In this document: positions 24,553 through 52,767 of the stretch, one piece after another
Layout: each line of letters begins with the position of its first letter
Position numbering within the stretch: the stretch's first letter is position 1
The notes under the pieces: generated by a model
Seen by the model: the letters and a program-made list of their open reading frames with translations, nothing else
The model's database searches: none
Told to the model about the DNA's origin: nothing
Program-made: the position numbers and the translations under genes
Source: Diprion similis
Lineage: Eukaryota; Arthropoda; Insecta; Hymenoptera; Diprionidae
Length of the DNA stretch: 64,000 bases
Assembly: GCF_021155765.1 (NCBI RefSeq)
Contig: NC_060118.1
Span: 10,351,646-10,415,645, forward strand
Reading direction: 5' to 3'

Positions 24553-25776
24553 ATGAAGGTGAGGATCGACGGCTAGTGTGAATATTCGCAATCTACATGG
24601 TGCCAGCAAATCGATCTCGGTGCAAATCGGGACCGAACTGCATATCGAACTTTGAACACATCAGTGATTTCGTTTCACAATAAACTCGCGAAAAATTCCT
24701 AATTCTGATTTATAAGAGGGACCAAGAAGGAACGAAGATCTTACGATATCGATATGACATGAGATTTTCCAATTAGTCAATTTAGATCATACACCTGTAT
24801 TCTATCGAATTTTATTACTCTCACGATTATAGTGATTGTCGAATTTGCGCTCGATTGCAATGCGCCTGGATACGGCACAGATTTAGAATTCCGCGACTGA
24901 TTTCCGTGCATGATACTAATTGTCAATAAAAGACGACTAATATTGTGGTTACGACTACTCAGGTATTCCTTGCCCTGTGTCTCGTTGCGGCGGCGTCCGC
25001 CAGCCTGGAGCCTGCCGGATATCGTCCTCCAGGTTCCGCTCCCTCGACGCGTTACCTGCCTGCGAGTAACCAGGCGTCATCGGCCCCTCAGCAACCGTCG
25101 GCCAGGTACCTGCCGGCCAGTCAGTCGGAGAACCTGGCTACCCTGGCTCGTTTCCCAGCACCATCCAGTGCCTATCTTCCTGCCAACAACTACGAAGCTC
25201 CTGCTCGAGCCTCCCCGTCGTCCTCCAGGTTCTCCAGCGGCCCGTCCGCGTCCTACGGAGTCCCCGCTTCATCGCAGTACTCGGCGCCGGTTGCTGTTCC
25301 CGAAAATCGTTACCTCCCGGCCACCAACGCTGTAAACGGAGGTGGCGACTCAGGATACGCCTACGGAGATGCCGAAAATTCAGTGAGTATGAGCATAACT
25401 CAATATTGTAACCACGATTGCCGGTAGACCGATGTTTGAGTTCCGGTTACCGGTTATCGGGGAATGTTGAACTGGACGCCATGTAACGATGTAAACTTTC
25501 CTGTCGCTTCAGGAACCCGCGAAGTACGATTTCCAGTACGAGGTGAAGGACAACTACGACAACGACTTTGGACACCAAGAGAGCCGTGACGGCGACGACA
25601 CCAAGGGCATGTACTACGTCCTCCTTCCCGACGGACGCAAGCAGATCGTCGAGTACACGGCCGACCAGGAAGGTTACAAGCCCAGGATCTCGTACGAGGA
25701 GGCAAGGCAAGGATACAACAACGGATACAATCAGAGAAACGGTCAAGCTGGGGGATATCCCGAAGGACCTTATTAG
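24553..25776 (+). CDS. YLPA-motif RR cuticular protein, copy 1 (229 aa)
   Basis: Exons: 24553-24558 (MK, then GTGAGG), 24963-25382 and 25513-25776 (TAG); introns phase 0. MK joins VFLALCLVAAASA as signal peptide. The mature part starts SLEPAGYRPPG and carries scattered YLPA motifs (RYLPAS, AYLPAN, RYLPAT) in a Ser/Ala/Pro-rich linker. The last exon encodes the RR chitin-binding domain (EPAKYDFQYEVKD, DFGHQESRDGDD, YYVLLPDGRKQIVEYTADQE, YKPRISYEE) and a Tyr/Asn/Gly tail. Family role: secreted chitin-binding cuticle protein; tyrosines in such motifs are thought to serve crosslinking. A near-identical inverted copy lies at 51691-52702 across the satellite array. From about 25103 to 25758 I see no difference between them, intron 2 included, while the first exon, signal peptide and 3' UTR differ. 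Confidence 0.9.
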
Positions 25777-25882
25777 AAGTGAAATATATTCCGCAATGGT
25801 GGCTTGATGAGTAGACACGTGATAAAAACGATCATGTATTTTAATGTACATATTGTAGCTACCGATGTATAATTACTAGTGA

Positions 25883-25888
25883 AATAAA
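25883..25888 (+). terminator. Poly(A) signal of RR gene copy 1
   Basis: AATAAA about 105 bp after the stop codon, the first such hexamer downstream. Confidence 0.65.
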
Positions 25889-26349
25889 GAAATTTTGTAC
25901 CTCGTAATATTAACCTGCGTATGATCTCTGTGCATTGCTCGATCTACTTCTTAATCAGATCAGTAATACAACGTTGATAATGCGGTCATGACAACACAAA
26001 TAGGGAAAAAGATAAAAGATACATGACAAAAGACGGAACGAATTCAAGGATTGCAAAACTGACAAGCAAGAAGAAATCTGCATTTCGATTTTGAAAGGTG
26101 GTAATGTCGTTCAAATGACAGATGTCTGCAGGATCGGGGATTTTCCATTGAATTTCCGCAAGATGTTCGTCGTGCAACTAAAAGAGCTATGATTCAATAT
26201 AGTCTGTCATTTCTGCTTTTCTTAGAGTCCTATAGGATGGAGAGGAGTCATGGTGAAAAGAGTCTGAGTGAAGAATTTCCGGCTCGCTTTCGCTAAGCTC
26301 ATAGCGTTCTCAAAAGTTGAATGAGTTGATGAAGGTGACACAGATGAAT
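25889..26349. other. Spacer between RR gene copy 1 and the satellite array
   Basis: About 460 bp with no gene. Its right end grades into the first, clearly divergent satellite monomer; whether older, more decayed monomers lie further left cannot be told by eye. Confidence 0.5.
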
Positions 26350-28784
26350 GTCAATCACTGGAGTCCCAATACGCGACAAGCAGCGCAAAAAGTGTTACAG
26401 ACGAAAAACTGCAGATTTTCATCGTCATTTCGCCGCTGCTGGTCCTAGGCTCTTTTTCATGTGTTTCCTAAGTTCCTGGGCGTCGAATTAGTCCAAAAAG
26501 CGTCATACGGATCGATTCCAAGACAAAAGATTTTTCGGCCAAAAAAAATCCAAGGCTAACCCCTTTGCATTTTTGGCGAAAATTTCGACGACTTTGAAAA
26601 GTGCTGCAATTAATTCTTGAGGGTACTAATCCGACGTGATTTTGCGAGAGGAATCGATTAATCGCAGTCCCGATACGCTGCGAGCAACACCTGCAAAGTT
26701 ACAGCCGAAAAACTACAGATTTTCATCGTCATTTCTCCGCTGCTGGTCCTAGGCTCTTTTTCATGTGTTTTCTGGGTTCCTGGGCGTCGAATTAGTCTAA
26801 AAAGCGTCATACGGATCGATTCCAAGACAAAAGATTTTTCGGCCAAAAAAAATCCAAGGCTAACCCCTTTGCATTTTTGGCGAAAATTTCGACGACTTTG
26901 AAAAGTGCTGCAATTAATTCTTTAGGGTACTATTCCGACGTGATTTTGCGAGAGGAATCGATTAATCGCAGTCCCGATACGCTGCGAGCAACACCTGCAA
27001 AGTTACAGCCGAAAAACTGCAGATTTTCATCGTCATTTCTCCGCTGCTGGTCCTAGGCTCTTTTTCATGTGTTTTCTGAGTTCCTGGGCGTCGAATTAGT
27101 CTAAAAAGCGTCATACGGATCGATTCCAAGACAAAAGATTTTTCGGCCAAAAAAAATCCAAGGCTAACCCCTTTGCATTTTTGGCGAAAATTTCGACGAC
27201 TTTGAAAAGTGCTGCAGATAATTCTTTAGGGTACTATTCCGACGTGATTTTGCGAGAGGAATCGATTAATCGCAGTCCCGATACGCTGCGAGCAACACCT
27301 GCAAAGTTACAGCCGAAAAACTGCAGATTTTCATCGTCATTTCTCCGCTGCTGGTCCTAGGCTCTTTTTCATGTGTTTTCTGAGTTCCTGGGCGTCGAAT
27401 TAGTCTAAAAAGCGTCATACGGATCGATTCCAAGACAAAAGATTTTTCGGCCAAAAAAAATCCAAGGCTAACCCCTTTGCATTTTTGGCGAAAATTTCGA
27501 CGACTTTGAAAAGTGCTGCAATTAATTCTTTAGGGTACTATTCCGACGTGATTTTGCGAGAGGAATCGATTAATCGCAGTCCCGATACGCTGCGAGCAAC
27601 ACCTGCAAAGTTACAGCCGAAAAACTGCAGATTTTCATCGTCATTTCTCCGCTGCTGGTCCTAGGCTCTTTTTCATGTGTTTTCTGAGTTCCTGGGCGTC
27701 GAATTAGTCTAAAAAGCGTCATACGGATCGATTCCAAGACAAAAGATTTTTCGGCCAAAAAAAATCCAAGGCTAACCCCTTTGCATTTTTGGCGAAAATT
27801 TCGACGACTTTGAAAAGTGCTGCAATTAATTCTTTAGGGTACTATTCCGACGTGATTTTGCGAGAGGAATCGATTAATCGCAGTCCCGATACGCTGCGAG
27901 CAACACCTGCAAAGTTACAGCCGAAAAACTGCAGATTTTCATCGTCATTTCTCCGCTGCTGGTCCTAGGCTCTTTTTCATGTGTTTTCTGAGTTCCTGGG
28001 CGTCGAATTAGTCTAAAAAGCGTCATACGGATCGATTCCAAGACAAAAGATTTTTCGGCCAAAAAAAATCCAAGGCTAACCCCTTTGCATTTTTGGCGAA
28101 AATTTCGACGACTTTGAAAAGTGCTGCAATTAATTCTTTAGGGTACTATTCCGACGTGATTTTGCGAGAGGAATCGATTAATCGCAGTCCCGATACGCTG
28201 CGAGCAACACCTGCAAAGTTACAGCCGAAAAACTGCAGATTTTCATCGTCATTTCTCCGCTGCTGGTCCTAGGCTCTTTTTCGTGTGTTTTCTGAGTTCC
28301 TGGGCGTCGAATTAGTCTAAAAAGCGTCATACGGATCGATTCCAAGACAAAAGATTTTTCGGCCAAAAAAAATCCAAGGCTAACCCTTTGCATTTTTGGC
28401 GAAAATTTCGACGACTTTGAAAAGTGCTGCAATTAATTCTTTAGGGTACTATTCCGACGTGATTTTGCGAGAGGAATCGATTAATCGCAGTCCCGATACG
28501 CTGCGAGCAACACCTGCGAAGTTACAGCCGAAAAACTGCAGATTTTCATCGTCATTTCTCCGCTGCTGGTCCTAGGCTCTTTTTCATGTGTTTTCTGAGT
28601 TCCTGGGCGTCGAATTAGTCTAAAAAGCGTCATACGGATCGATTCCAAGACAAAAGATTTTTCGGCCAAAAAAAATCCAAGGCTAACCCCTTTGCATTTT
28701 TGGCGAAAATTTCGACGACTTTGAAAAGTGCTGCAATTAATTCTTTAGGGTACTATTCCGACGTGATTTTGCGAGAGGAATCGA

Positions 28785-31700
28785 TTAATCGCAGTCCCGA
28801 TACGCTGCGAGCAACACCCGCAAAGTTACAGCCGAAAAACTGCAGATTTTCATCGTCATTTCTCCGCTGCTGGTTCTAGGCTCTTTTTCATGTGTTTTCT
28901 GAGTTCCTGGGCGTCGAATTAGTCTAAAAAGCGTCATACGGATCGATTCCAAGACAAAAGATTTTTCGGCCAAAAAAAATCCAAGGCTAACCCCTTTGCA
29001 TTTTTGGCGAAAATTTCGACGACTTTGAAAAGTGCTGCAATTAATTCTTTAGGGTACTATTCCGACGTGATTTTGCGAGAGGAATCGATTATTCGCAGTC
29101 CCGATACGCTGCGAGCAACACCTGCAAAGTGACAGCCGAAAAACTGCAGATTCTCATCGTCATTTCTCCGCTGCTGGTCCTAGGCTCTTTTTCATGTGTT
29201 TTCTGAGTTCCTGGGCGTCGAATTAGTCTAAAAAGCGTCATACGGATCGATTCCAAGACAAAAGATTTTTCGGCCAAAAAAAATCCAAGGCTAACCCCTT
29301 TGCATTTTTGGCGAAAATTTCGACGACTTTGAAAAGTGCTGCAATTAATTCTTTAGGGTACTATTCCGACGTGATTTTGCGAGAGGAATCGATTAATCGC
29401 AGTCCCGATACGCTGCGAGCAACACCTGCAAAGTTACAGCCGAAAAACTGCAGATTTTCATCGTCATTTCTCCGCTGCTGGTCCTAGGCTCTTTTTCATG
29501 TGTTTTCTGAGTTCCTGGGCGTCGAATTAGTCTAAAAAGCGTCATACGGATCGATTCCAAGACAAAAGATTTTTCGGCCAAAAAAAATCCAAGGCTAACC
29601 CCTTTGCATTTTTGGCGAAAATTTCGACGACTTTGAAAAGTGCTGCAATTAATTCTTTAGGGTACTATTCCGACGTGATTTTGCGAGAGGAATCGATTAA
29701 TCGCAGTCCCGATACGCTGCGAGCAACACCTGCAAAGTTACAGCCGAAAAACTGCAGATTTTCATCGTCATTTCTCCGCTGCTGGTCCTAGGCTCTTTTT
29801 CATGTGTTTTCTGAGTTCCTGGGCGTCGAATTAGTCTAAAAAGCGTCATACGGATCGATTCCAAGACAAAAGATTTTTCGGCCAAAAAAAATCCAAGGCT
29901 AACCCCTTTGCATTTTTGGCGAAAATTTCGACGACTTTGAAAAGTGCTGCAATTAATTCTTTAGGGTACTATTCCGACGTGATTTTGCGAGAGGAATCGA
30001 TTAATCGCAGTCCCGATACGCTGCGAGCAACACCTGCAAAGTTACAGCCGAAAAACTGCAGATTTTCACCGTCATTTCTCCGCTGCTGGTCCTAGGCTCT
30101 TTTTCATGTGTTTTCTGAGTTCCTGGGCGTCGAATTAGTCTAAAAAGCGTCATACGGATCGATTCCAAGACAAAAGATTTTTCGGCCAAAAAAAATCCAA
30201 GGCTAACCCCTTTGCAATTTTGGCGAAAATTTCGACGACTTTGAAAAGTGCTGCAATTAATTCTTTAGGGTACTATTCCGACGTGATTTTGCGACAGGAA
30301 TCGATTAATCGCAGTCCCGATACGCTGCGAGCAACACCTGCAAAGTTACAGCCAAAAAACTGCAGATTTTCATCGTCATTTCTCCGCTGCTGGTCCTAGG
30401 CTCTTTTTCATGTGTTTTCTGAGTTCCTGGGCGTCGAATTAGTCTAAAAAGCGTCATACGGATCGATTCCAAGACAAAAGATTTTTCGGCCAAAAAAAAT
30501 CCAAGGCTAACCCCTTTGCATTTTTGGCGAAAATTTCGACGACTTTGAAAAGTGCTGCAATTAATTCTTTAGGGTACTATTCCGACGTGATTTTGCGAGA
30601 GGAATCGATTAATCGCAGTCCCGATACGCTGCGAGCAACACCCGCAAAGTTACAGCCGAAAAACTGCAGATTTTCATCGTCATTTCTCCGCTGCTGGTTC
30701 TAGGCTCTTTTTCATGTGTTTTCTGAGTTCCTGGGCGTCGAATTAGTCTAAAAAGCGTCATACGGATCGATTCCAAGACAAAAGATTTTTCGGCCAAAAA
30801 AAATCCAAGGCTAACCCCTTTGCATTTTTGGCGAAAATTTCGACGACTTTGAAAAGTGCTGCAATTAATTCTTTAGGGTACTATTCCGACGTGATTTTGC
30901 GAGAGGAATCGATTAATCGCAGTCCCGATACGCTGCGAGCAACACCTGCAAAGTTACAGCCGAAAAACTGCAGATTTTCATCGTCATTTCTCCGCTGCTG
31001 GTCCTAGGCTCTTTTTCATGTGTTTTCTGAGTTCCTGGGCGTCGAATTAGTCTAAAAAGCGTCATACGGATCGATTCCAAGACAAAAGATTTTTCGGCCA
31101 AAAAAAATCCAAGGCTAACCCCTTTGCATTTTTGGCGAAAATTTCGACGACTTTGAAAAGTGCTGCAATTAATTCTTTAGGGTACTATTCCGACGTGATT
31201 TTGCGAGAGGAATCGATTATTCGCAGTCCCGATACGCTGCGAGCAACACCTGCAAAGTGACAGCCGAAAAACTGCAGATTCTCATCGTCATTTCTCCGCT
31301 GCTGGTCCTAGGCTCTTTTTCATGTGTTTTCTGAGTTCCTGGGCGTCGAATTAGTCTAAAAAGCGTCATACGGATCGATTCCAAGACAAAAGATTTTTCG
31401 GCCAAAAAAAATCCAAGGCTAACCCCTTTGCATTTTTGGCGAAAATTTCGACGACTTTGAAAAGTGCTGCAATTAATTCTTTAGGGTACTATTCCGACGT
31501 GATTTTGCGAGAGGAATCGATTAATCGCAGTCCCGATACGCTGCGAGCAACACCCGCAAAGTTACAGCCGAAAAACTGCAGATTTTCATCGTCATTTCTC
31601 CGCTGCTGGTTCTAGGCTCTTTTTCATGTGTTTTCTGAGTTCCTGGGCGTCGAATTAGTCTAAAAAGCGTCATACGGATCGATTCCAAGACAAAAGATTT

Positions 31701-34700
31701 TTCGGCCAAAAAAAATCCAAGGCTAACCCCTTTGCATTTTTGGCGAAAATTTCGACGACTTTGAAAAGTGCTGCAATTAATTCTTTAGGGTACTATTCCG
31801 ACGTGATTTTGCGAGAGGAATCGATTAATCGCAGTCCCGATACGCTGCGAGCAACACCTGCAAAGTTACAGCCGAAAAACTGCAGATTTTCATCGTCATT
31901 TCTCCGCTGCTGGTCCTAGGCTCTTTTTCATGTGTTTTCTGAGTTCCTGGGCGTCGAATTAGTCTAAAAAGCGTCATACGGATCGATTCCAAGACAAAAG
32001 ATTTTTCGGCCAAAAAAAATCCAAGGCTAACCCCTTTGCATTTTTGGCGAAAATTTCGACGACTTTGAAAAGTGCTGCAATTAATTCTTTAGGGTACTAT
32101 TCCGACGTGATTTTGCGAGAGGAATCGATTATTCGCAGTCCCGATACGCTGCGAGCAACACCTGCAAAGTGACAGCCGAAAAACTGCAGATTCTCATCGT
32201 CATTTCTCCGCTGCTGGTCCTAGGCTCTTTTTCATGTGTTTTCTGAGTTCCTGGGCGTCGAATTAGTCTAAAAAGCGTCATACGGATCGATTCCAAGACA
32301 AAAGATTTTTCGGCCAAAAAAAATCCAAGGCTAACCCCTTTGCATTTTTGGCGAAAATTTCGACGACTTTGAAAAGTGCTGCAATTAATTCTTTAGGGTA
32401 CTATTCCGACGTGATTTTGCGAGAGGAATCGATTAATCGCAGTCCCGATACGCTGCGAGCAACACCCGCAAAGTTACAGCCGAAAAACTGCAGATTTTCA
32501 TCGTCATTTCTCCGCTGCTGGTTCTAGGCTCTTTTTCATGTGTTTTCTGAGTTCCTGGGCGTCGAATTAGTCTAAAAAGCGTCATACGGATCGATTCCAA
32601 GACAAAAGATTTTTCGGCCGAAAAAAATCCAAGGCTAACCCCTTTGCATTTTTGGCGAAAATTTCGACGACTTTGAAAAGTGCTGCAATTAATTCTTTAG
32701 GGTACTATTCCGACGTGATTTTGCGAGAGGAATCGATTATTCGCAGTCCCGATACGCTGCGAGCAACACCTGCAAAGTGACAGCCGAAAAACTGCAGATT
32801 CTCATCGTCATTTCTCCGCTGCTGGTCCTAGGCTCTTTTTCATGTGTTTTCTGAGTTCCTGGGCGTCGAATTAGTCTAAAAAGCGTCATACGGATCGATT
32901 CCAAGACAAAAGATTTTTCGGCCAAAAAAAATCCAAGGCTAACCCCTTTGCATTTTTGGCGAAAATTTCGACGACTTTGAAAAGTGCTGCAATTAATTCT
33001 TTAGGGTACTATTCCGACGTGATTTTGCGAGAGGAATCGATTAATCGCAGTCCCGATACGCTGCGAGCAACACCTGCAAAGTTACAGCCGAAAAACTGCA
33101 GATTTTCATCGTCATTTCTCCGCTGCTGGTCCTAGGCTCTTTTTCATGTGTTTTCTGAGTTCCTGGGCGTCGAATTAGTCTAAAAAGCGTCATACGGATC
33201 GATTCCAAGACAAAAGATTTTTCGGCCAAAAAAAATCCAAGGCTAACCCCTTTGCATTTTTGGCGAAAATTTCGACGACTTTGAAAAGTGCTGCAATTAA
33301 TTCTTTAGGGTACTATTCCGACGTGATTTTGCGAGAGGAATCGATTAATCGCAGTCCCGATACGCTGCGAGCAACACCTGCAAAGTTACAGCCGAAAAAC
33401 TGCAGATTTTCATCGTCATTTCTCCGCTGCTGGTCCTAGGCTCTTTTTCATGTGTTTTCTGAGTTCCTGGGCGTCGAATTAGTCTAAAAAGCGTCATACG
33501 GATCGATTCTAAGACAAAAGATTTTTCGGCCAAAAAAAATCCAAGGCTAACCCCTTTGCATTTTTGACGAAAATTTCGACGACTTTGAAAAGTGCTGCAA
33601 TTAATTCTTTAGGGTACTATTCCGACGTGATTTTGCGAGAGGAATCGATTAATCGCAGTCCCGATACGCTGCGAGCAACACCTGCAAAGTTACAGCCGAA
33701 AAACTGCAGATTTTCATCGTCATTTCTCCGCTGCTGGTCCTAGGCTCTTTTTCATGTGTTTTCTGAGTTCCTGGGCGTCGAATTAGTCTAAAAAGCGTCA
33801 TACGGATCGATTCCAAGACAAAAGATTTTTCGGCCAAAAAAAATCCAAGGCTAACCCCTTTGCATTTTTGGCGAAAATTTCGACGACTTTGAAAAGTGCT
33901 GCAATTAATTCTTTAGGGTACTATTCCGACGTGATTTTGCGAGAGGAATCGATTAATCGCAGTCCCGATACGCTGCGAGCAACACCCGCAAAGTTACAGC
34001 CGAAAAACTGCAGATTTTCATCGTCATTTCTCCGCTGCTGGTTCTAGGCTCTTTTTCATGTGTTTTCTGAGTTCCTGGGCGTCGAATTAGTCTAAAAAGC
34101 GTCATACGGATCGATTCCAAGACAAAAGATTTTTCGGCCAAAAAAAATCCAAGGCTAACCCCTTTGCATTTTTGGCGAAAATTTCGACGACTTTGAAAAG
34201 TGCTGCAATTAATTCTTTAGGGTACTATTCCGACGTGATTTTGCGAGAGGAATCGATTAATCGCAGTCCCGATACGCTGCGAGCAACACCTGCAAAGTTA
34301 CAGCCGAAAAACTGCAGATTTTCATCGTCATTTCTCCGCTGCTGGTCCTAGGCTCTTTTTCATGTGTTTTCTGAGTTCCTGGGCGTCGAATTAGTCTAAA
34401 AAGCGTCATACGGATCGATTCCAAGACAAAAGATTTTTCGGCCAAAAAAAATCCAAGGCTAACCCCTTTGCATTTTTGGCGAAAATTTCGACGACTTTGA
34501 AAAGTGCTGCAATTAATTCTTTAGGGTACTATTCCGACGTGATTTTGCGAGAGGAATCGATTAATCGCAGTCCCGATACGCTGCGAGCAACACCTGCAAA
34601 GTTACAGCCGAAAAACTGCAGATTTTCATCGTCATTTCTCCGCTGCTGGTCCTAGGCTCTTTTTCATGTGTTTTCTGAGTTCCTGGGCGTCGAATTAGTC

Positions 34701-34864
34701 TAAAAAGCGTCATACGGATCGATTCCAAGACAAAAGATTTTTCGGCCAAAAAAAATCCAAGGCTAACCCCTTTGCAATTTTGGCGAAAATTTCGACGACT
34801 TTGAAAAGTGCTGCAATTAATTCTTTAGGGTACTATTCCGACGTGATTTTGCGAGAGGAATCGA
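28785..34864. repeat. Higher-order satellite unit 1 (20 monomers, 6,080 bp)
   Basis: The order of variant monomers here is repeated in the next 6,080 bp. Private mutations recur at exactly +6,080. The A-to-G in the A-run after ttttcggcc is at 32620 and again at 38700. The C-to-T in gatcgattc is at 33510 and again at 39590. The caggaatcg/ccaaaaaac pair near 30295/30353 recurs near 36375/36433. Confidence 0.85.
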
Positions 34865-37800
34865 TTAATCGCAGTCCCGATACGCTGCGAGCAACACCCG
34901 CAAAGTTACAGCCGAAAAACTGCAGATTTTCATCGTCATTTCTCCGCTGCTGGTTCTAGGCTCTTTTTCATGTGTTTTCTGAGTTCCTGGGCGTCGAATT
35001 AGTCTAAAAAGCGTCATACGGATCGATTCCAAGACAAAAGATTTTTCGGCCAAAAAAAATCCAAGGCTAACCCCTTTGCATTTTTGGCGAAAATTTCGAC
35101 GACTTTGAAAAGTGCTGCAATTAATTCTTTAGGGTACTATTCCGACGTGATTTTGCGAGAGGAATCGATTATTCGCAGTCCCGATACGCTGCGAGCAACA
35201 CCTGCAAAGTGACAGCCGAAAAACTGCAGATTCTCATCGTCATTTCTCCGCTGCTGGTCCTAGGCTCTTTTTCATGTGTTTTCTGAGTTCCTGGGCGTCG
35301 AATTAGTCTAAAAAGCGTCATACGGATCGATTCCAAGACAAAAGATTTTTCGGCCAAAAAAAATCCAAGGCTAACCCCTTTGCATTTTTGGCGAAAATTT
35401 CGACGACTTTGAAAAGTGCTGCAATTAATTCTTTAGGGTACTATTCCGACGTGATTTTGCGAGAGGAATCGATTAATCGCAGTCCCGATACGCTGCGAGC
35501 AACACCTGCAAAGTTACAGCCGAAAAACTGCAGATTTTCATCGTCATTTCTCCGCTGCTGGTCCTAGGCTCTTTTTCATGTGTTTTCTGAGTTCCTGGGC
35601 GTCGAATTAGTCTAAAAAGCGTCATACGGATCGATTCCAAGACAAAAGATTTTTCGGCCAAAAAAAATCCAAGGCTAACCCCTTTGCATTTTTGGCGAAA
35701 ATTTCGACGACTTTGAAAAGTGCTGCAATTAATTCTTTAGGGTACTATTCCGACGTGATTTTGCGAGAGGAATCGATTAATCGCAGTCCCGATACGCTGC
35801 GAGCAACACCTGCAAAGTTACAGCCGAAAAACTGCAGATTTTCATCGTCATTTCTCCGCTGCTGGTCCTAGGCTCTTTTTCATGTGTTTTCTGAGTTCCT
35901 GGGCGTCGAATTAGTCTAAAAAGCGTCATACGGATCGATTCCAAGACAAAAGATTTTTCGGCCAAAAAAAATCCAAGGCTAACCCCTTTGCATTTTTGGC
36001 GAAAATTTCGACGACTTTGAAAAGTGCTGCAATTAATTCTTTAGGGTACTATTCCGACGTGATTTTGCGAGAGGAATCGATTAATCGCAGTCCCGATACG
36101 CTGCGAGCAACACCTGCAAAGTTACAGCCGAAAAACTGCAGATTTTCATCGTCATTTCTCCGCTGCTGGTCCTAGGCTCTTTTTCATGTGTTTTCTGAGT
36201 TCCTGGGCGTCGAATTAGTCTAAAAAGCGTCATACGGATCGATTCCAAGACAAAAGATTTTTCGGCCAAAAAAAATCCAAGGCTAACCCCTTTGCAATTT
36301 TGGCGAAAATTTCGACGACTTTGAAAAGTGCTGCAATTAATTCTTTAGGGTACTATTCCGACGTGATTTTGCGACAGGAATCGATTAATCGCAGTCCCGA
36401 TACGCTGCGAGCAACACCTGCAAAGTTACAGCCAAAAAACTGCAGATTTTCATCGTCATTTCTCCGCTGCTGGTCCTAGGCTCTTTTTCATGTGTTTTCT
36501 GAGTTCCTGGGCGTCGAATTAGTCTAAAAAGCGTCATACGGATCGATTCCAAGACAAAAGATTTTTCGGCCAAAAAAAATCCAAGGCTAACCCCTTTGCA
36601 TTTTTGGCGAAAATTTCGACGACTTTGAAAAGTGCTGCAATTAATTCTTTAGGGTACTATTCCGACGTGATTTTGCGAGAGGAATCGATTAATCGCAGTC
36701 CCGATACGCTGCGAGCAACACCCGCAAAGTTACAGCCGAAAAACTGCAGATTTTCATCGTCATTTCTCCGCTGCTGGTTCTAGGCTCTTTTTCATGTGTT
36801 TTCTGAGTTCCTGGGCGTCGAATTAGTCTAAAAAGCGTCATACGGATCGATTCCAAGACAAAAGATTTTTCGGCCAAAAAAAATCCAAGGCTAACCCCTT
36901 TGCATTTTTGGCGAAAATTTCGACGACTTTGAAAAGTGCTGCAATTAATTCTTTAGGGTACTATTCCGACGTGATTTTGCGAGAGGAATCGATTAATCGC
37001 AGTCCCGATACGCTGCGAGCAACACCTGCAAAGTTACAGCCGAAAAACTGCAGATTTTCATCGTCATTTCTCCGCTGCTGGTCCTAGGCTCTTTTTCATG
37101 TGTTTTCTGAGTTCCTGGGCGTCGAATTAGTCTAAAAAGCGTCATACGGATCGATTCCAAGACAAAAGATTTTTCGGCCAAAAAAAATCCAAGGCTAACC
37201 CCTTTGCATTTTTGGCGAAAATTTCGACGACTTTGAAAAGTGCTGCAATTAATTCTTTAGGGTACTATTCCGACGTGATTTTGCGAGAGGAATCGATTAT
37301 TCGCAGTCCCGATACGCTGCGAGCAACACCTGCAAAGTGACAGCCGAAAAACTGCAGATTCTCATCGTCATTTCTCCGCTGCTGGTCCTAGGCTCTTTTT
37401 CATGTGTTTTCTGAGTTCCTGGGCGTCGAATTAGTCTAAAAAGCGTCATACGGATCGATTCCAAGACAAAAGATTTTTCGGCCAAAAAAAATCCAAGGCT
37501 AACCCCTTTGCATTTTTGGCGAAAATTTCGACGACTTTGAAAAGTGCTGCAATTAATTCTTTAGGGTACTATTCCGACGTGATTTTGCGAGAGGAATCGA
37601 TTAATCGCAGTCCCGATACGCTGCGAGCAACACCCGCAAAGTTACAGCCGAAAAACTGCAGATTTTCATCGTCATTTCTCCGCTGCTGGTTCTAGGCTCT
37701 TTTTCATGTGTTTTCTGAGTTCCTGGGCGTCGAATTAGTCTAAAAAGCGTCATACGGATCGATTCCAAGACAAAAGATTTTTCGGCCAAAAAAAATCCAA

Positions 37801-40800: not shown

Positions 40801-40944
40801 GATTCCAAGACAAAAGATTTTTCGGCCAAAAAAAATCCAAGGCTAACCCCTTTGCAATTTTGGCGAAAATTTCGACGACTTTGAAAAGTGCTGCAATTAA
40901 TTCTTTAGGGTACTATTCCGACGTGATTTTGCGACAGGAATCGA
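34865..40944. repeat. Higher-order satellite unit 2 (20 monomers, 6,080 bp)
   Basis: Tandem duplicate of 28785-34864 by variant-monomer order and shared private mutations. Small differences exist: for example 30070 has C (caccgtc) where the second copy has T, and one monomer near 39296 has its own change. The next monomer (40945) again is of the ccaaaaaac type, so a short third piece may begin before the order breaks. Confidence 0.85.
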
Positions 40945-43900
40945 TTAATCGCAGTCCCGATACGCTGCGAGCAACACCTGCAAAGTTACAGCCAAAAAAC
41001 TGCAGATTTTCATCGTCATTTCTCCGCTGCTGGTCCTAGGCTTTTTTTCATGTGTTTTCTGAGTTCCTGGGCGTCGAATTAGTCTAAAAAGCGTCATACG
41101 GATCGATTCCAAGACAAAAGATTTTTCGGCCAAAAAAAATCCAAGGCTAACCCCTTTGCATTTTTGGCGAAAATTTCGACGACTTTGAAAAGTGCTGCAA
41201 TTAATTCTTTAGGGTACTATTCCGACGTGATTTTGCGAGAGGAATCGATTAATCGCAGTCCCGATACGCTGCGAGCAACACCTGCAAAGTTACAGCCGAA
41301 AAACTGCAGATTTTCATCGTCATTTCTCCGCTGCTGGTCCTAGGCTCTTTTTCATGTGTTTTCTGAGTTCCTGGGCGTCGAATTAGTCTAAAAAGCGTCA
41401 TACGGATCGATTCCAAGACAAAAGATTTTTCGGCCAAAAAAAATCCAAGGCTAACCCCTTTGCATTTTTGGCGAAAATTTCGACGACTTTGAAAAGTGCT
41501 GCAATTAATTCTTTAGGGTACTATTCCGACGTGATTTTGCGAGAGGAATCGATTAATCGCAGTCCCGATACGCTGCGAGCAACACCTGCAAAGTTACAGC
41601 CGAAAAACTGCAGATTTTCATCGTCATTTCTCCGCTGCTGGTCCTAGGCTCTTTTTCATGTGTTTTCTGAGTTCCTGGGCGTCGAATTAGTCTAAAAAGC
41701 GTCATACGGATCGATTCCAAGACAAAAGATTTTTCGGCCAAAAAAAATCCAAGGCTAACCCCTTTGCAATTTTGGCGAAAATTTCGACGACTTTGAAAAG
41801 TGCTGCAATTAATTCTTTAGGGTACTATTCCGACGTGATTTTGCGAGAGGAATCGAATAATCGCAGTCCCGATACGCTGCGAGCAACACCTGCAAAGTTA
41901 CAGCCGAAAAACTGCAGATTTTCATCGTCATTTCTCCGCTGCTGGTCCTAGGCTCTTTTTCATGTGTTTTCTGAGTTCCTGGGCGTCGAATTAGTCTAAA
42001 AAGCGTCATACGGATCGATTCCAAGACAAAAGATTTTTCGGCCAAAAAAAATCCAAGGCTAACCCCTTTGCATTTTTGGCGAAAATTTCGACGACTTTGA
42101 AAAGTGCTGCAATTAATTCTTTAGGGTACTATTCCGACGTGATTTTGCGAGAGGAATCGATTAATCGCAGTCCCGATACGCTGCGAGCAACACCTGCAAA
42201 GTTACAGCCGAAAAACTGCAGATTTTCATCGTCATTTCTCCGCTGCTGGTCCTAGGCTCTTTTTCATGTGTTTTCTGAGTTCCTGGGCGTCGAATTAGTC
42301 TAAAAAGCGTCATACGGATCGATTCCAAGACAAAAGATTTTTCGGCCAAAAAAAATCCAAGGCTAACCCCTTTGCATTTTTGGCGAAAATTTCGACGACT
42401 TTGAAAAGTGCTGCAATTAATTCTTTAGGGTACTATTCCGACGTGATTTTGCGAGAGGAATCGATTATTCGCAGTCCCGATACGCTGCGAGCAACACCTG
42501 CAAAGTGACAGCCGAAAAACTGCAGATTCTCATCGTCATTTCTCCGCTGCTGGTCCTAGGCTCTTTTTCATGTGTTTTCTGAGTTCCTGGGCGTCGAATT
42601 AGTCTAAAAAGCGTCATACGGATCGATTCCAAGACAAAAGATTTTTCGGCCAAAAAAAATCCAAGGCTAACCCCTTTGCATTTTTGGCGAAAATTTCGAC
42701 GACTTTGAAAAGTGCTGCAATTAATTCTTTAGGGTACTATTCCGACGTGATTTTGCGAGAGGAATCGATTAATCGCAGTCCCGATACGCTGCGAGCAACA
42801 CCTGCAAAGTTACAGCCGAAAAACTGCAGATTTTCATCGTCATTTCTCCGCTGCTGGTCCTAGGCTCTTTTTCATGTGTTTTCTGAGTTCCTGGGCGTCG
42901 AATTAGTCTAAAAAGCGTCATACGGATCGATTCCAAGACAAAAGATTTTTCGGCCAAAAAAAATCCAAGGCTAACCCCTTTGCATTTTTGGCGAAAATTT
43001 CGACGACTTTGAAAAGTGCTGCAATTAATTCTTTAGGGTACTATTCCGACGTGATTTTGCGAGAGGAATCGATTAATCGCAGTCCCGATACGCTGCGAGC
43101 AACACCTGCAAAGTGACAGCCGAAAAACTGCAGATTCTCATCGTCATTTCTCCGCTGCTGGTCCCAGGCTCTTTTTCATGTGTTTTCTGAGTTCCTGGGC
43201 GTCGAATTAGTCTAAAAAGCGTCATACGGATCGATTCCAAGACAAAAGATTTTTCGGCCAAAAAAAATCCAAGGCTAACCCCTTTGCATTTTTGGCGAAA
43301 ATTTCGACGACTTTGAAAAGTGCTGCAATTAATTCTATAGGGTACTATTCCGACGTGATTTTGCGAGAGGAATCGATTAATCGCAGTCCCGATACGCTGC
43401 GAGCAACACCTGCAAAGTTACAGCCGAAAAACTGCAGATTTTCATCGTCATTTCTCCGCTGCTGGTCCTAGGCTCTTTTTCATGTGTTTTCTGAGTTCCT
43501 GGGCGTCGAATTAGTCTAAAAAGCGTCATACGGATCGATTCCAAGACAAAAGATTTTTCGGCCAAAAAAAATCCAAGGCTAACCCCTTTGCAATTTTGGC
43601 GAAAATTTCGACGACTTTGAAAAGTGCTGCAATTAATTCTTTAGGGTACTATTCCGACGTGATTTTGCGACAGGAATCGATTAATCGCAGTCCCGATACG
43701 CTGCGAGCAACACCTGCAAAGTTACAGCCGAAAAACTGCAGATTTTCATCGTCATTTCTCCGCTGCTGGTCCTAGGCTCTTTTTCACGTGTTTTCTGAGT
43801 TCCTGGGCGCCGAATTAGTCTAAAAAGCGTCATACGGATCGATTCCAAGACAAAAGATTTTTCGGCCAAAAAAAATCCAAGGCTAACCCCTTTGCATTTT

Positions 43901-46318
43901 TGGCGAAAATTTCGACGACTTTGAAAAGTGCTGCAATTAATTCTTTAGGGTACTATTCCGACGTGATTTTGCGAGAGGAATCGATTAATCGCAGTCCCGA
44001 TACGCTGCGAGCAACACCTGCAAAGTTACAGCCGAAAAACTGCAGATTTTCATCGTCATTTCTCCGCTGCTGGTCCTAGGCTCTTTTTCATGTGTTTTCT
44101 GAGTTCCTGGGCGTCGAATTAGTCTAAAAAGCGTCATACGGATCGATTCCAAGACAAAAGATTTTTCGGCCAAAAAAAATCCAAGGCTAACCCCTTTGCA
44201 TTTTTGGCGAAAATTTCGACGACTTTGAAAAGTGCTGCAATTAATTCTTTAGGGTACTATTCCGACGTGATTTTGCGAGAGGAATCGATTAATCGCAGTC
44301 CCGATACGCTGCGAGCAACACCTGCAAAGTTACAGCCGAAAAACTGCAGATTTTCATCGTCATTTCTCCGCTGCTGGTCCTAGGCTCTTTTTCATGTGTT
44401 TTCTGAGTTCCTGGGCGTCGAATTAGTCTAAAAAGCGTCATACGGATCGATTCCAAGACAAAAGATTTTTCGGCCAAAAAAAATCCAAGGCTAACCCCTT
44501 TGCATTTTTGGCGAAAATTTCGACGACTTTGAAAAGTGCTGCAATTAATTCTTTAGGGTACTATTCCGACGTGATTTCGCGAGAGGAATCGATTAATCGC
44601 AGTCCCGATACGCTGCGAGCAACACCTGCAAAGTTACAGCCGAAAAACTGCAGATTTTCATCGTCATTTCTCCGCTGCTGGTCCTAGGCTCTTTTTCATG
44701 TGTTTTCTGAGTTCCTGGGCGTCGAATTAGTCTAAAAAGCGTCATACGGATCGATTCCAAGACAAAAGATTTTTCGGCCAAAAAAAATCCAAGGCTAACC
44801 CCTTTGCATTTTTGGCGAAAATTTCGACGACTTTGAAAAGTGCTGCAATTAATTCTTTAGGGTACTATTCCGACGTGATTTTGCGAGAGGAATCGATTAA
44901 TCGCAGTCCCGATACGCTGCGAGCAACACCTGCAAAGTTACAGCCGAAAAACTGCAGATTTTCATCGTCATTTCTCCGCTGCTGGTCCTAGGCTCTTTTT
45001 CATGTGTTTTCTGAGTTCCTGGGCGTCGAATTAGTCTAAAAAGCGTCATACGGATCGATTCCAAGACAAAAGATTTTTCGGCCAAAAAAAATCCAAGGCT
45101 AACCCCTTTGCATTTTTGGCGAAAATTTCGACGACTTTGAAAAGTGCTGCAATTAATTCTTTAGGGTACTATTCCGACGTGATTTTGCGAGAGGAATCGA
45201 TTATTCGCAGTCCCGATACGCTGCGAGCAACACCTGCAAAGTGACAGCCAAAAAACTGCAGATTCTCATCGTCATTTCTCCGCTGCTGGTCCTAGGCTCT
45301 TTTTCATGTGTTTTCTGAGTTCCTGGGCGTCGAATTAGTCTAAAAAGCGTCATACGGATCGATTCCAAGACAAAAGATTTTTCGGCCAAAAAAAATCCAA
45401 GGCTAACCCCTTTGCATTTTTGGCGAAAATTTCGACGACTTTGAAAAGTGCTGCAATTAATTCTTTAGGGTACTATTCCGACGTGATTTTGCGAGAGGAA
45501 TCGATTAATCGCAGTCCCGATACGCTGCGAGCAACACCTGCAAAGTTACAGCCGAAAAACTGCAGATTTTCATCGTCATTTCTCCGCTGCTGGTCCTAGG
45601 CTCTTTTTCATGTGTTTTCTGAGTTCCTGGGCGTCGAATTAGTCTAAAAAGCGTCATACGGATCGATTCCAAGACAAAAGATTTTTCGGCCAAAAAAAAT
45701 CCAAGGCTAACCCCTTTGCAATTTTGGCGAAAATTTCGACGACTCCGAAAAGTGCTGCAATTAATTCTTTAGGGTACTATTCCGACGTGATTTTGCGAGA
45801 GGAATCGATTAATCGCAGTCCCGATACGCTGCGAGCAACACCTGCAAAGTTACAGCCGAAAAACTGCAGATTTTCATCGTCATTTCTCCGCTGCTGGTCC
45901 TAGGCTCTTTTTCATGTGTTTTCTGAGTTCCTGGGCGTCGAATTAGTCTAAAAAGCGTCATACGGATCGATTCCAAGACAAAAGATTTTTCGGCCAAAAA
46001 AAATCCAAGGCTAACCCCTTTGCATTTTTGGCGAAAATTTCGACGACTTTGAAAAGTGCTGCAATCAATTCTTTAGGGTACTATTCCGACGTGATTTTGC
46101 GAGAGGAATCGATTAATCGCAGTCCCGATACGCTGCGAGCAACACCTGCAAAGTTACAGCCGAAAAACTGCAGATTTTCATCGTCATTTCTCCGCTGCTG
46201 GTCCTAGGCTCTTTTTCATGTGTTTTCTGAGTTCCTGGGCGTCGAATTAGTCTAAAAAGCGTCATACGGATCGATTCCAAGACAAAAGATTTTTCGGCCA
46301 AAAAAAATCCAAGGCTAA

Positions 46319-48381
46319 TCCAAGCAACAAATACCAAGACCATAATAACAAACACAAAATGGAAAAAAATAAAACCATGGATCACACAAGGCATAATCAC
46401 ATCTATTAGAAAGAGGGACGAGATGGCGAGAAAGCTTCGGAGAAACAAAAACGACACCGTACAAAAAGAAGAATACAGGATATACAGGAACAGTCTCACA
46501 AGACTTATAAAAGCAACAAAAAACTCTTATTACAGTAAGCAAATAGAAAAAGCAGGCAATGACCAGAAGAGGATCTGGCAAGTAATCAACGAGAATCGAT
46601 ATGAAAAAGTGGACAGAAACAAGGAACGTGTATATACAATAAAAATAGGAGAAACGAAAATAACCGACCCTAAACAAATTGCCAACAGCTTTAACGAGTT
46701 TTACATCAGTATGGGTAAGAATCTCGCCAAAAAAATCCCAAAAACCAAGATGAAAAACACAAAAAACGAAATAAACATAAAGGACTCAATATTCCTGACA
46801 CCAATATACGAAGCAGAAATAAAAAAACACATAATGGAGCAGAAAAACAGTGCATCCACGGGACATGACAACATTAAAGCCGAATTTCTCAAACAGAATG
46901 TAGAATACCTTACAAAACCCCTAGAATACATATTCAATCTTAGTATAGAAAAAGGAATATTTCCGATACACTTTAAGACAAACACCATAACGACTATATA
47001 TAAGACAGGGGATAAAATGGACATGGCCAACTATAGGCCCATAGCTATCACCAGTGCGATAGGAAAGCTCCTTGAGAAATGTATGAAAACTAGGCTGATA
47101 AAACACATGGACAAGCACAACATCATTTCAGTAAATCAATATGGATTCAGACAAAATTGCAGCACACAGGATGCGATCTACTCACTAACAAAGTACATAT
47201 ACGGGAAGATAGACAAAAAGAAGAAAATAGTAGGAGTGTATCTAGACCTAGCGAAAGCTTTCGACACGGTGCCACATCAAAGACTGTTGGAGAAAATGGA
47301 AGCAATAGGGATCAGGGGCATCTCTCTGCGATGGTTCGGAAGCTACCTGACAGAAAGAACGCAACAAGTAAAACTAGGAACATCATACAGTGAACGAAAA
47401 ATTACGGAATGCGGAATACCCCAAGGGACTGTCCTATCGGCAATTTTGTTTAACGTATATGTAAATGATATATGCAACATGAAAATGTCATCGAAAATAT
47501 TAGCATACGCCGACGACACTGTCATATTGACTGCAAAGGATACGTGGAAAGAAGCCTTTGAAACAGCAAACCAAGACCTGAATGCAGTATATGAATATCT
47601 TAACGAACACCTACTATCCTTGAATGAGAAAAAAACCAAATATATGACATACGCATCCAGCAAAATAGGAGAAGAAACAAGAGGACCGGAATTTTCAATT
47701 AAACTACATAGATACGATACAACAAACAAGAAATGTACGTATGAAGAAATTGAAAAGACAGAAGAAATAAAGTACCTAGGAATAATCATTGACCAAAAAC
47801 TAACATGGAAGACACATATACTTCAAACATCAGCAAGAATCCGAAAACTGATACACACCTTCATCAATTTACAAAATATGGTAGACAAAACAACAATGAA
47901 AAAAGTATACTATAGTCTCGTGAACTCCGTACTAGAATACGGTATAATAGGCTGGGGTGGAACATACGGCAAACATCTCAGACCGCTGGAAATAACTCAG
48001 AAGCTAATCCTAAGAATAGCGTACAAGAAGGATAGAAAATACTCTACCGAGAAATTATATGAAGAAACGGGACTACTGGACATTAGACAAACTTACATGA
48101 AGGCTGCAGCAATAAAGATTCATAAATCGAATTTAACGGACGAAGAATACCAGATCGTACACGCGCATGATACAAGGGCAAGAGTCAACAAAGAGGTAAC
48201 AAACCTGAAAACATACACAACGAAAGGACAACACCAAGCTGACTACATAGGCCGAAAAATATATAACGAACTCGATAACGAAATGAGAAAACAACCAACA
48301 CTCAGATTCAAAAAAAACATGAAACAATGGATTTTCAGCAGAGGAAGAGAATACTTCAACAAAATTACAAGCCAGGAATGA
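46319..48381 (+). CDS. LINE ORF2 fragment: reverse transcriptase
   Basis: The frame is open without a stop from the truncation point to TGA at 48381, about 687 codons; the first Met is at 46423. N-terminal KPWITQGIITSIRKRDEM is the linker normally found between endonuclease and RT domains. RT motifs follow in order: YRPIAITSAIGKLLEK, QYGFRQNCSTQDAI, VYLDLAKAFDTVPH (catalytic Asp), GIPQGTVLSAILFNVYVND and the catalytic YADDT (47506-47520). After them come thumb-like and C-terminal segments (LEYGIIGWGG). No RNase H domain is seen. The intact frame suggests a recent insertion. The copy cannot move on its own since the endonuclease part and the 5' promoter are absent. Codons are A-rich, unlike the GC-rich host genes around it. 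Confidence 0.92.
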
Positions 48382-48567
48382 AACAGATGAGACCTACAAA
48401 TCAGAACACAGGACGGACAACACAAACGAAATAATGAAAATAAGTAAGCCGAACCCTTGACACCCTACGCACAAGTTTCCGAACTTATGTGGGGGAGGGC
48501 GACGCACTCTACATGGAGGTACACATCGTAGATTATAAGTTAATTCTCACGCAGACAGAAATAGAGG

Positions 48568-48568
<1 letters not shown>

Positions 48569-48597
<29 letters not shown>
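48569..48597 (+). repeat. A29 tract in the LINE 3' UTR
   Basis: Uninterrupted run of 29 A, about 100 bp before the true (AAACT)n end of the element. It is internal, so it is not the insertion tail. Confidence 0.85.
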
Positions 48598-48598
<1 letters not shown>

Positions 48599-48701
48599 AC
48601 TGTATAAACTTACAAGTATAACTATGTAGCGTATTTAAAAAAAAAAAAATGTATTGTGTTCACCGAAATGGGAGATATCCAATAAACTAAACTAAACTAA
48701 A

Positions 48702-51052
48702 CTAACCCCTTTGCATTTTTGGCGAAAATTTCGACGACTTTGAAAAGTGCTGCAATTAATTCTTTAGGGTACTATTCCGACGTGATTTTGCGAGAGGAAT
48801 CGATTAATCGCAGTCCCGATACGCTGCGAGCAACACCTGCAAAGTTACAGCCGAAAAACTGCAGATTTTCATCGTCATTTCTCCGCTGCTGGTCCTAGGC
48901 TCTTTTTCATGTGTTTTCTGAGTTCCTGGGCGTCGAATTAGTCTAAAAAGCGTCATACGGATCGATTCCAAGACAAAAGATTTTTCGGCCAAAAAAAATC
49001 CAAGGCTAACCCCTTTGCATTTTTGGCGAAAATTTCGACGACTTTGAAAAGTGCTGCAATTAATTCTTTAGGGTACTATTCCGACGTGATTTTGCGAGAG
49101 GAATCGATTAATCGCAGTCCCGATACGCTGCGAGCAACACCTGCAAAGTTACAGCCGAAAAACTGCAGATTTTCATCGTCATTTCTCCGCTGCTGGTCCT
49201 AGGCTCTTTTTCATGTGTTTTCTGAGTTCCTGGGCGTCGAATTAGTCTAAAAAGCGTCATACGGATCGATTCCAAGACAAAAGATTTTTCGGCCAAAAAA
49301 AATCCAAGGCTAACCCCTTTGCAATTTTGGCGAAAATTTCGACGACTTTGAAAAGTGCTGCAATTAATTCTTTAGGGTACTATTCCGACGTGATTTTGCG
49401 AGAGGAATCGATTAATCGCAGTCCCGATACGCTGCGAGCAACACCTGCAAAGTTACAGCCGAAAAACTGCAGATTTTCATCGTCATTTCTCCGCTGCTGG
49501 TCCTAGGCTCTTTTTCATGTGTTTTCTGAGTTCCTGGGCGTCGAATTAGTCTAAAAAGCGTCATACGGATCGATTCCAAGACAAAAGATTTTTCGGCCAA
49601 AAAAAATCCAAGGCTAACCCCTTTGCATTTTTGGCGAAAATTTCGACGACTTTGAAAAGTGCTGCAATTAATTCTTTAGGGTACTATTCCGACGTGATTT
49701 TGCGAGAGGAATCGATTAATCGCAGTCCCGATACGCTGCGAGCAACACCTGCAAAGTTACAGCCGAAAAACTGCAGATTTTCATCGTCATTTCTCCGCTG
49801 CTGGTCCTAGGCTCTTTTTCATGTGTTTTCTGAGTTCCTGGGCGTCGAATTAGTCTAAAAAGCGTCATACGGATCGATTCCAAGACAAAAGATTTTTCGG
49901 CCAAAAAAAATCCAAGGCTAACCCCTTTGCAATTTTGGCGAAAATTTCGACGACTTTGAAAAGTGCTGCAATTAATTCTTTAGGGTACTATTCCGACGTG
50001 ATTTTGCGAGAGGAATCGATTAATCGCAGTCCCGATACGCTGCGAGCAACACCTGCAAAGTTACAGCCGAAAAACTGCAGATTTTCATCGTCATTTCTCC
50101 GCTGCTGGTCCTAGGCTCTTTTTCATGTGTTTTCTGAGTTCCTGGGCGTCGAATTAGTCTAAAAAGCGTCATACGGATCGATTCCAAGACAAAAGATTTT
50201 TCGGCCAAAAAAAATCCAAGGCTAACCCCTTTGCATTTTTGGCGAAAATTTCGACGACTTTGAAAAGTGCTGCAATTAATTCTTTAGGGTACTATTCCGA
50301 CGTGATTTTGCGAGAGGAATCGATTATTCGCAGTCCCGATACGCTGCGAGCAACACCTGCAAAGTGACAGCCGAAAAACTGCAGATTCTCATCGTCATTT
50401 CTCCGCTGCTGGTCCTAGGCTCTTTTTCATGTGTTTTCTGAGTTCCTGGGCGTCGAATTAGTCTAAAAAGCGTCATACGGATCGATTCCAAGACAAAAGA
50501 TTTTTCGGCCAAAAAAAATCCAAGGCTAACCCCTTTGCATTTTTGGCGAAAATTTCGACGACTTTGAAAAGTGCTGCAATTAATTCTTTAGGGTACTATT
50601 CCGACGTGATTTTGCGAGAGGAATCGATTAATCGCAGTCCCGATACGCTGCGAGCAACACCTGCAAAGTTACAGCCGAAAAACTGCAGATTTTCATCGTC
50701 ATTTCTCCGCTGCTGGTCCTAGGCTCTTTTTCATGTGTTTTCTGAGTTCCTGGGCGTCGAATTAGTCTAAAAAGCGTCATACGGATCGATTCCAAGACAA
50801 AAGATTTTTCGGCCAAAAAAAATCCAAGGCTAACCCCTTTGCATTTTTGGCGAAAATTTCGACGACTTTGAAAAGTGCTGCAATTAATTCTTTAGGGTAC
50901 TATTTCGACGTGATTTTGCGAGAGGAATCGATTAATCGCAGTCATGATACGCTGCGAGCAACACCTGCAAAGTTACAGCCGAAAAACTGCAGATTTTCAT
51001 CGTCATTTCTCCGCTGCTGGTCCTACGCTATTCTTTATGTGTTTTCTGAGTT
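48702..51052. repeat. 304-bp satellite array, right block (about 8 monomers)
   Basis: Continues the left block in the same orientation and phase once the LINE is removed. It contains A-type monomers and one B-type monomer (around 50324). The last monomer (from about 50900) shows rising divergence: tttcgacg, gtcatgatacg, then tcctacgctattctt. Confidence 0.96.
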
Positions 51053-51190
51053 TCAGGATGTTGATCTAGACTTGAAAGTATCAGACAAATCTATTTCTAG
51101 ACCGCAGATTCACTGGGCAAAACGAAAGCAACTCGAACCTATCCTGATTTTTAGCTAAAATATGGTCGATTGTGAAAGAAGCTTGCTGCG
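51053..51190. repeat. Decayed satellite edge
   Basis: Alignable by eye to the monomer but heavily mutated. gagtttcaggatgttgatct aligns with gagttcctgggcgtcgaatt, agtatcagac with agcgtcatac, and gatttttagctaaaat with catttttggcgaaaat. Traces such as tactatttttgacg near 51260 suggest decay continues further, but I cannot set the limit. Confidence 0.65.
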
Positions 51191-51690
51191 AACAGCGGGT
51201 GAACCTCTCACCTGATAAACGAAGTGTTCTCCAGCATTTGCTTAGCTTTTGGTCCAATATACTATTTTTGACGTATCCTTCGATATCCTGAATTTTTTTA
51301 CCGAAATCATAGTAACAAATTGATCTTTGCATCGCAAATTTCGGGGACCCAATATCATAGTCACAAAGACACAGTGATTCTTATTGGCAAAAAAACTTGA
51401 TGAATTCTGAGAACCCTCAGGTAGCTTCTTTGCTCGTCAGCGTCAAATTCAGTATCAATTCGTTTCTAAAGCCTGACCCATATTCTCTACTCCATACATT
51501 GGAATTTTAATTTACACACAATTTTAAACTTCTTGTAAATATTTATGCAATCAGATGATTTTTCAATTATCACCGAGTCGCATTTTTACTGAATTTTTAT
51601 TTCATATATATGCGCTACATGTGATCATAGTTATGGTAGACATTTACACACGGAAAATTACATTATCCAAGAAAATAATGATGTCAATTT
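51191..51690. other. Spacer between the satellite edge and RR gene copy 2
   Basis: No gene. It must hold the 3' UTR of copy 2 (minus strand). It shows no similarity to the 3' flank of copy 1, which marks the end of the shared tract. Confidence 0.5.
51596..51601 (-). terminator. Poly(A) signal of RR gene copy 2
   Basis: AATAAA on the minus strand about 90 bp past the stop codon of copy 2. Confidence 0.55.
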
Positions 51691-52702
51691 CTAATAAGGC
51701 CCGACTGAATCACTTTGAGAATATCCCCCAGCTTGACCGTTTCTCTGATTGTATCCGTTGTTGTATCCTTGCCTTGCCTCCTCGTACGAGATCCTGGGCT
51801 TGTAACCTTCCTGGTCGGCCGTGTACTCGACGATCTGCTTGCGTCCGTCGGGAAGGAGGACGTAGTACATGCCCTTGGTGTCGTCGCCGTCACGGCTCTC
51901 TTGGTGTCCAAAGTCGTTGTCGTAGTTGTCCTTCACCTCGTACTGGAAATCGTACTTCGCGGGTTCCTGAAGCGACAGGAAAGTTTACATCGTTACATGG
52001 CGTCCAGTTCAACATTCCCCGATAACCGGTAACCGGAACTCAAACATCGGTCTACCGGCAATCGTGGTTACAATATTGAGTTATGCTCATACTCACTGAA
52101 TTTTCGGCATCTCCGTAGGCGTATCCTGAGTCGCCACCTCCGTTTACAGCGTTGGTGGCCGGGAGGTAACGATTTTCGGGAACAGCAACCGGCGCCGAGT
52201 ACTGCGATGAAGCGGGGACTCCGTAGGACGCGGACGGGCCGCTGGAGAACCTGGAGGACGACGGGGAGGCTCGAGCAGGAGCTTCGTAGTTGTTGGCAGG
52301 AAGATAGGCACTGGATGGTGCTGGGAAACGAGCCAGGGTAGCCAGGTTCTCCGACTGACTGGCCGGCAGGTACCTGACCGACGGTTGCTGAGGGGCCGAT
52401 GTTGCCTGGTAGTTACTTGCGGGCAGGTAACGCGTCGAGGGAGCGGAACCTGGTGGACGATATCCGGCAGGCTCCAGGCTGGCGGACGCCGTCGCGACGA
52501 GGCACAAAACAGCTACGATCTGTGTACATTCAATATACAGTTTTAGTATCACAAGAGTCACAATAAGATTGTTCAGATTACATGTACCGAGAAAATATCA
52601 CTGCAGTTTGCAGAGTTTAAAAGTAGAGTAGCACCGTTTCCGGGCTTACCGAAGCCCAAAAGATCACACCGTATCGATCTTACTGGATCCTCTTACCTTC
52701 AT
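51691..52702 (-). CDS. YLPA-motif RR cuticular protein, copy 2 (234 aa, inverted)
   Basis: Minus strand. Exons: 52702-52697 (MK, then GTAAGA), 52519-52097 and 51966-51691 (TAG); introns phase 0. MK joins IVAVLCLVATASA as signal peptide, then SLEPAGYRPPG. Linker and RR chitin-binding domain equal copy 1 except for a few residues near the N-terminus (SNYQATSAP against SNQASSAP; SVRYLP against SARYLP). The C-terminus ends GGYSQSDSVGPY instead of GGYPEGPY. The 130-bp intron 2 is identical to that of copy 1 by base-by-base reading, whereas intron 1, promoter and 3' UTR are unrelated by eye. Role as for copy 1: secreted, chitin-binding cuticle protein. Both copies point toward the satellite array. 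The different promoters could give different expression times for almost the same protein. Confidence 0.9.
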
Positions 52703-52760
52703 GGTATGTATTCCTCTGCGTGCCGAACGGTTATAATTAAAAGCAAGGATCCACCCCGGC

Positions 52761-52767
52761 TTATATA
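52761..52767 (-). promoter_or_regulatory. TATA box of RR gene copy 2
   Basis: TATATAA on the minus strand, about 60 bp upstream of the ATG at 52702. It differs from the TATAAGA of copy 1, in line with independent promoters. Confidence 0.65.

Follow-up and report, generated by a model that had tools for sequence, protein, structure and literature searches.

The two cuticle genes described here point towards each other from opposite strands of a 64,000-nucleotide stretch of Diprion similis DNA (contig NC_060118.1; the whole stretch is called the window below), and they raise the question of how a pair of genes can be letter-for-letter identical in the middle and beyond alignment at both ends. 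Copy 1 lies on the plus strand (24553-25776) and copy 2 on the minus strand (52702-51691), a convergent RR pair already proposed by a first-pass annotation of the sequence, the coordinates of which were borne out. In the predicted gene model of copy 1, a first exon of 6 nucleotides (ATGAAG, encoding MK; 24553..24558) is followed by exon 2 with the rest of the signal peptide and a YLPA-repeat region (24963..25382) and by exon 3 with the RR (Chitin_bind_4) domain, the tail PEGPY and the stop (25513..25776; PF00379, E 4.2e-15). The predicted model of copy 2 comprises exon 1 (ATGAAG, 52697..52702), exon 2 (52097..52519) and exon 3 with the RR domain, the tail SQSDSVGPY and the stop (51691..51966; PF00379, E 4.9e-15), all on the minus strand; in both copies the exon 3 coordinates include the complete stop codon. 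A third paralogue, used as an outgroup, has the same predicted exon plan on the minus strand (56559-56554, 56480-55815 and 55751-55485).

Both copies belong to the CPR family as judged by PF00379 scores of 56.2 and 56.0 bits against a curated cut-off of 25, with exon 3 of all three genes scoring 56.0 to 56.7 bits. The ATGAAG first exon and phase-0 introns are common to the predicted models of copies 1 and 2, the same first exon recurs in that of the third paralogue, and in all three models it interrupts the signal peptide, a trait that the accessible part of PMC2259329 describes as common, not universal, in the CPR family. All three genes also end in a conserved GPY-stop. No Pfam family scored above cut-off in exon 2 of copy 1, which carries YLPA four times, a repeat resembling the YLP motif described for cuticle proteins in the available text of PMC2932725. 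Apart from the tail (PEGPY vs. SQSDSVGPY), the only differences between the proteins of copies 1 and 2 after the assumed signal peptide are two substitutions and an inserted Tyr.

Base-by-base alignment of the two loci confirmed what the first-pass annotation had claimed, the lack of any difference from 25103 to 25758 in copy 1, including a 130-bp intron. This stretch on the plus strand (25103..25758) is identical at 656/656 positions to 52376-51721 of copy 2 (51721..52376 on the minus strand); exon 2 contributes 280 bp of it and exon 3 the last 246 bp, with the whole 130-bp intron 2 in between. Intron 2 itself is identical at 130/130 positions (copy 1 25383-25512, copy 2 52096-51967), and none of about 122 synonymous sites in the tract differs between the copies. 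The edges can be read directly from the alignment, with the nearest differences at 25102 on the 5' side and 25759 on the 3' side in copy 1 coordinates. Just 5' of the tract, 24987-25102 (24987..25102, plus strand) is 94% identical (109/116), with 7 substitutions, a 3-bp indel and a dS of about 0.13; on the 3' side, the tail of exon 3 is identical at 15/18 positions and has a 12-bp indel. Within the 772-bp alignable block, 7/7 substitutions lie before the tract, in the leading 116 bp (P = 1.7e-6 if placement were uniform). A BLAST comparison of 2.5-kb stretches around the two copies returned a single strong match (774/786) and a second one of 29 bp, upstream.

Outside this block the likeness ends, as the first-pass annotation had also stated for signal peptide, intron 1, promoter and 3' UTR. 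The signal-peptide segment before 24987 has 13/24 bases in common (z 1.2), and intron 1 (404 vs. 177 bp; z 1.4), the 400 bp upstream (z -0.1) and the 400 bp downstream (z 0.1) aligned no better than base-shuffled sequence (100 shuffles each). The pair thus combines identity at neutral sites with homologous flanks that have diverged at either end of the tract, the homology of the signal-peptide edge being weak (z 1.2). Because intron and synonymous sites are identical while no alignment can be obtained for promoter, intron 1 and 3' UTR, we favor recent conversion for the tract, and because 24987-25102 is only 94% identical, an earlier round is suggested as well. Our reading, to which we give a probability of roughly 85%, is that copies 1 and 2 are old CPR paralogues homogenised by recent interlocus gene conversion laid over this earlier round. 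The older event would have left the 94%-identical stretch, which we take as an older conversion layer, and in the recent one the stretch of one gene (25103-25758 in copy 1) would have been copied over the other, so homogenising the protein body and the RR domain while the promoter, the start of the signal peptide, intron 1 and the 3' end stayed separate. The repair mechanism and the two-step order of events are what we infer from this pattern.

When the tract was searched against the 269-Mb assembly, it was found at full length in two places, both at 100%, the sole further match being the third paralogue with 79% over tract positions 406-628 (part of exon 3). Exon-3 dS relative to this paralogue is 1.48 for copy 1 and 1.64 for copy 2. 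With about 122 synonymous sites and 124 counted intron sites all unchanged, divergence between the two copies is at most 0.012 (95% upper bound). At an assumed rate of 3.4e-9 per site and generation, this bound corresponds to a tract age of up to about 1.8 million generations.

Since the comparison of the two copies draws on one genome assembly as its sole source, and satellite lies between them, an assembler or polishing step might have made two similar loci identical, or one copy might be false. We consider this very unlikely, given that the flanks of the two copies differ, with 7 sites and indels directly beside the tract, and that 656 bp is short relative to long reads in general, a point not specific to this assembly.

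How old the genes are, as opposed to the tract, has to be judged from less material: because intron 1, promoter and 3' UTR cannot be aligned, paralogy before conversion rests on the exon plan, the short exon edges and one upstream element. This element, defined by the pattern TCCCGATGTTACAG followed by zero or one base and TTGCG, matches the 269-Mb assembly exactly at two sites only. One precedes copy 1 (24367..24386, plus strand, ending 166 bp before the ATG) and the other copy 2 (52986..53004, minus strand, ending 283 bp before the ATG), with a pairwise BLAST E of 2e-5; the reversed control pattern had no exact match in the assembly. A similar word, with 14/16 letters matching, lies 142 bp upstream of the ATG of the third paralogue; this match is weak alone (E 1.9), and as many two-mismatch matches of the element word were reached in 7/100 shuffles of the window. 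TATA-like sequence is present upstream of the ATG in copy 2 (at 65 bp) and in the third paralogue (at 62 bp); in copy 1 the only counterpart is TATAAG. The element and the exon plan, both common to the pair, suggest that copies 1 and 2 share a promoter ancestry that has otherwise decayed and that the identical tract arose later than the genes, which look like old paralogues on these sequence features.

These observations bear on an alternative history, in which a segment from exon 2 to exon 3 was recently duplicated and inserted in inverted orientation, where it acquired another promoter, first exon and 3' end. Such a partial duplication would account for a clear alignment limited to exon 2-exon 3 next to unalignable promoter, intron 1 and 3' UTR. 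However, we regard it as unlikely, as judged by: 1) the 6-nt first exon, in-phase splice sites and GPY-stop, which in the predicted models are as in the third paralogue; 2) the upstream element, which both copies have and which occurs at no other exact place in the genome; 3) the two levels of identity within one block (94%, then 100%), which misfit a single event. Recent gene conversion, as the first-pass annotation had proposed, is well supported by the combination of identical intron and synonymous sites, unalignable flanks, and a shared exon plan and element.

The surroundings of the pair correspond less closely to what had been proposed. Palindrome-like arms, which the first-pass annotation had assumed, are absent: the shared segment is about 0.8 kb long, from exon 2 to exon 3, the neighbouring DNA is unalignable, and the stop codons of the two copies are 25,914 bp apart. 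On general grounds, a hairpin spanning 26 kb would be implausible. The 26-kb spacer does consist largely of satellite, as had been claimed (22,276 bp, 86%), but its two blocks turned out to be one array in one orientation split by 2.4 kb. The left block (26394..46318) and the right block (48702..51052) of this 304-bp satellite are both on the plus strand by monomer matches, and between them, inside a satellite monomer, lies an apparently truncated non-LTR reverse-transcriptase element (46319..48701, plus strand; PF00078, E 3.8e-40), bordered on either side by monomer positions 1-166 and 163-304. The CTAAA-repeat tail of the element joins at a CTAA that it has in common with the satellite monomer, an arrangement suggestive of pairing between tail and target. 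Two arrays in opposite orientation can be rejected, with 75/75 monomer matches in the window on the plus strand (E 1e-3); one 22-bp minus match left of the array (E 0.07) was taken as chance. The 71 monomers of exactly 304 bp have a mean pairwise identity of 99.1%. In 26394-46318, monomers 20 apart are identical in 18/44 comparisons, and this excess of identical pairs points to a recent duplication of a block inside the array.

Homology of one inner flank of the array to the other was rejected (best E about 0.5), and so was the idea that the satellite is confined to this locus: the matches listed fall on C3, C5, C7, C9, C11, C12, C13 and C14, that is, on at least 8 contigs with 38/435 candidates scored. 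We found no satellite beyond the inverted pair in 51053-64000 of the window and the adjoining 3.9 kb and 4.0 kb, and our literature search returned no paper on a 304-bp satellite DNA of Hymenoptera. The array is probably a mere intervening insertion.

The pair is part of an RR cluster (C14:10189k-10421k) with 12 matches, 10 of them on the plus strand; the only two on the minus strand are copy 2 and the third paralogue, which, as judged by orientation, may form an inverted two-gene block. Because these two alone are on the minus strand in the cluster, the satellite array would lie at one border of this possible block. Elsewhere in the window, a coding sequence of glycine-rich tandem repeats, which we take to be resilin-like, occupies 414-1975 and includes an RR domain (1787-1975), and two open frames inside the RR cluster match a 7tm chemosensory receptor (11787-12716; PF08395) and a tubulin-tyrosine ligase (14259-16175; PF03133). 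The window contains no Rfam family at gathering score and no tRNA.

The orientation of copy 2 and the third paralogue suggests a past inversion, and inverted identical tracts permit ectopic crossing-over, so that the mosaic and swapped 3' tails might have been made by a crossover producing a 26-kb inversion and not by non-crossover conversion. The accessible part of PMC2793513 reports a CPR inversion in D. persimilis, the breakpoints of which lie at coding repeats. We hold this to be the least probable of the alternatives and scarcely credible, since a crossover alone would not yield identical tracts, and no satellite was found on the far side of the pair (51053-64000 and the adjoining 3.9 kb and 4.0 kb). 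Non-crossover conversion between the two copies is still the reading that we prefer.

To place the pair within its family, we searched the genome for RR matches, of which there are at least 87, and compared 39 of them with each other, 20 of these in one cluster on C9; two further matches (L006 and L007) had no match to copies 1 and 2 or to the compared RR loci at E 1e-5. Among the 39/87 matches compared, exact runs reach 100 bp or more in nine pairs, several of which share genes; the longest is that of copies 1 and 2 (656 bp), followed by one of 394 bp. The other eight pairs are on C9, where the exact runs measure 119 to 394 bp; in 6/8 of them z<2 holds for one or both 200-bp flanks (60 shuffles each), and in 2/8, both inverted, for both flanks. 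Homogenised blocks with diverged flanks thus recur in the RR family. Some C9 pairs may be plain duplications and not conversions, because 6/8 keep homology (z >=4.4) in at least one flank. A preference of homogenised pairs for the inverted layout is unsupported, with 5 direct and 4 inverted among the nine (39/87 matches compared). The C9 cluster (C9:5725000-5844999, L008-L019) contains many similar pairs, direct and inverted, with runs up to 394 bp. On the same contig, C9:5831822-5832814 and 5821840-5822832 form a direct 993-bp pair with 97.6% identity and flank z of 1.6 and 1.0, in which not both ends are within 600 bp of an RR match.

The 5' edge of the tract (25102/25103) adjoins a YLPA repeat at 25107. 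As one case, this is only suggestive of a link to conversion at coding repeats. A broader idea, which we put forward as doubtful, is that copies 1 and 2 would keep exchanging sequence across a 22-kb satellite block, since the inverted layout would permit conversion but eliminate crossovers that alter copy number, and that repeated conversion at a coding repeat would hold two differently regulated genes to nearly one mature protein. If our reading is true, copies 1 and 2 provide a sharply bounded natural example in which conversion acts on the protein body and the regulatory ends are kept separate. They show what look like two age layers, and the genome offers other RR pairs for comparison.

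Our literature search, which was not species-specific, found no paper on this locus, and we regard copies 1 and 2 as a new example of an already known process, our knowledge of which they leave unchanged. As far as the available text of PMC2793513 goes (Cornman 2009), interlocus gene conversion among Drosophila CPR genes affects Ccp84Aa/Ccp84Ab and Cpr67Fa1/Fa2, with tracts starting near coding repeats in the 84A array and no repeat association in the 67F pair. Like those pairs, copies 1 and 2 are clustered RR genes, and as in the 84A array their tract begins beside a coding (YLPA) repeat; unlike those pairs, they come from one genome, have a 26-kb, mostly satellite spacer and include a 130-bp intron in the tract. 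In the palindromic Hsp70 and Amylase pairs of Drosophila, as outlined in the accessible part of a review (PMC3924832), linked inverted duplicates exchange sequence by conversion, which for Amylase is largely limited to coding sequence while the flanks diverge. Copies 1 and 2 are likewise linked and inverted and have probably exchanged sequence by conversion, but they are cuticle genes with a satellite spacer and a homogenised intron, seen within one species. The CPR clusters of Anopheles gambiae, for which concerted evolution is named as one cause, form compact arrays of genes that are near-identical in their coding regions and differ in their UTRs, according to the available portion of PMC2259329; in the three-gene case given there the introns differ, whereas intron 2 of copies 1 and 2 is identical.
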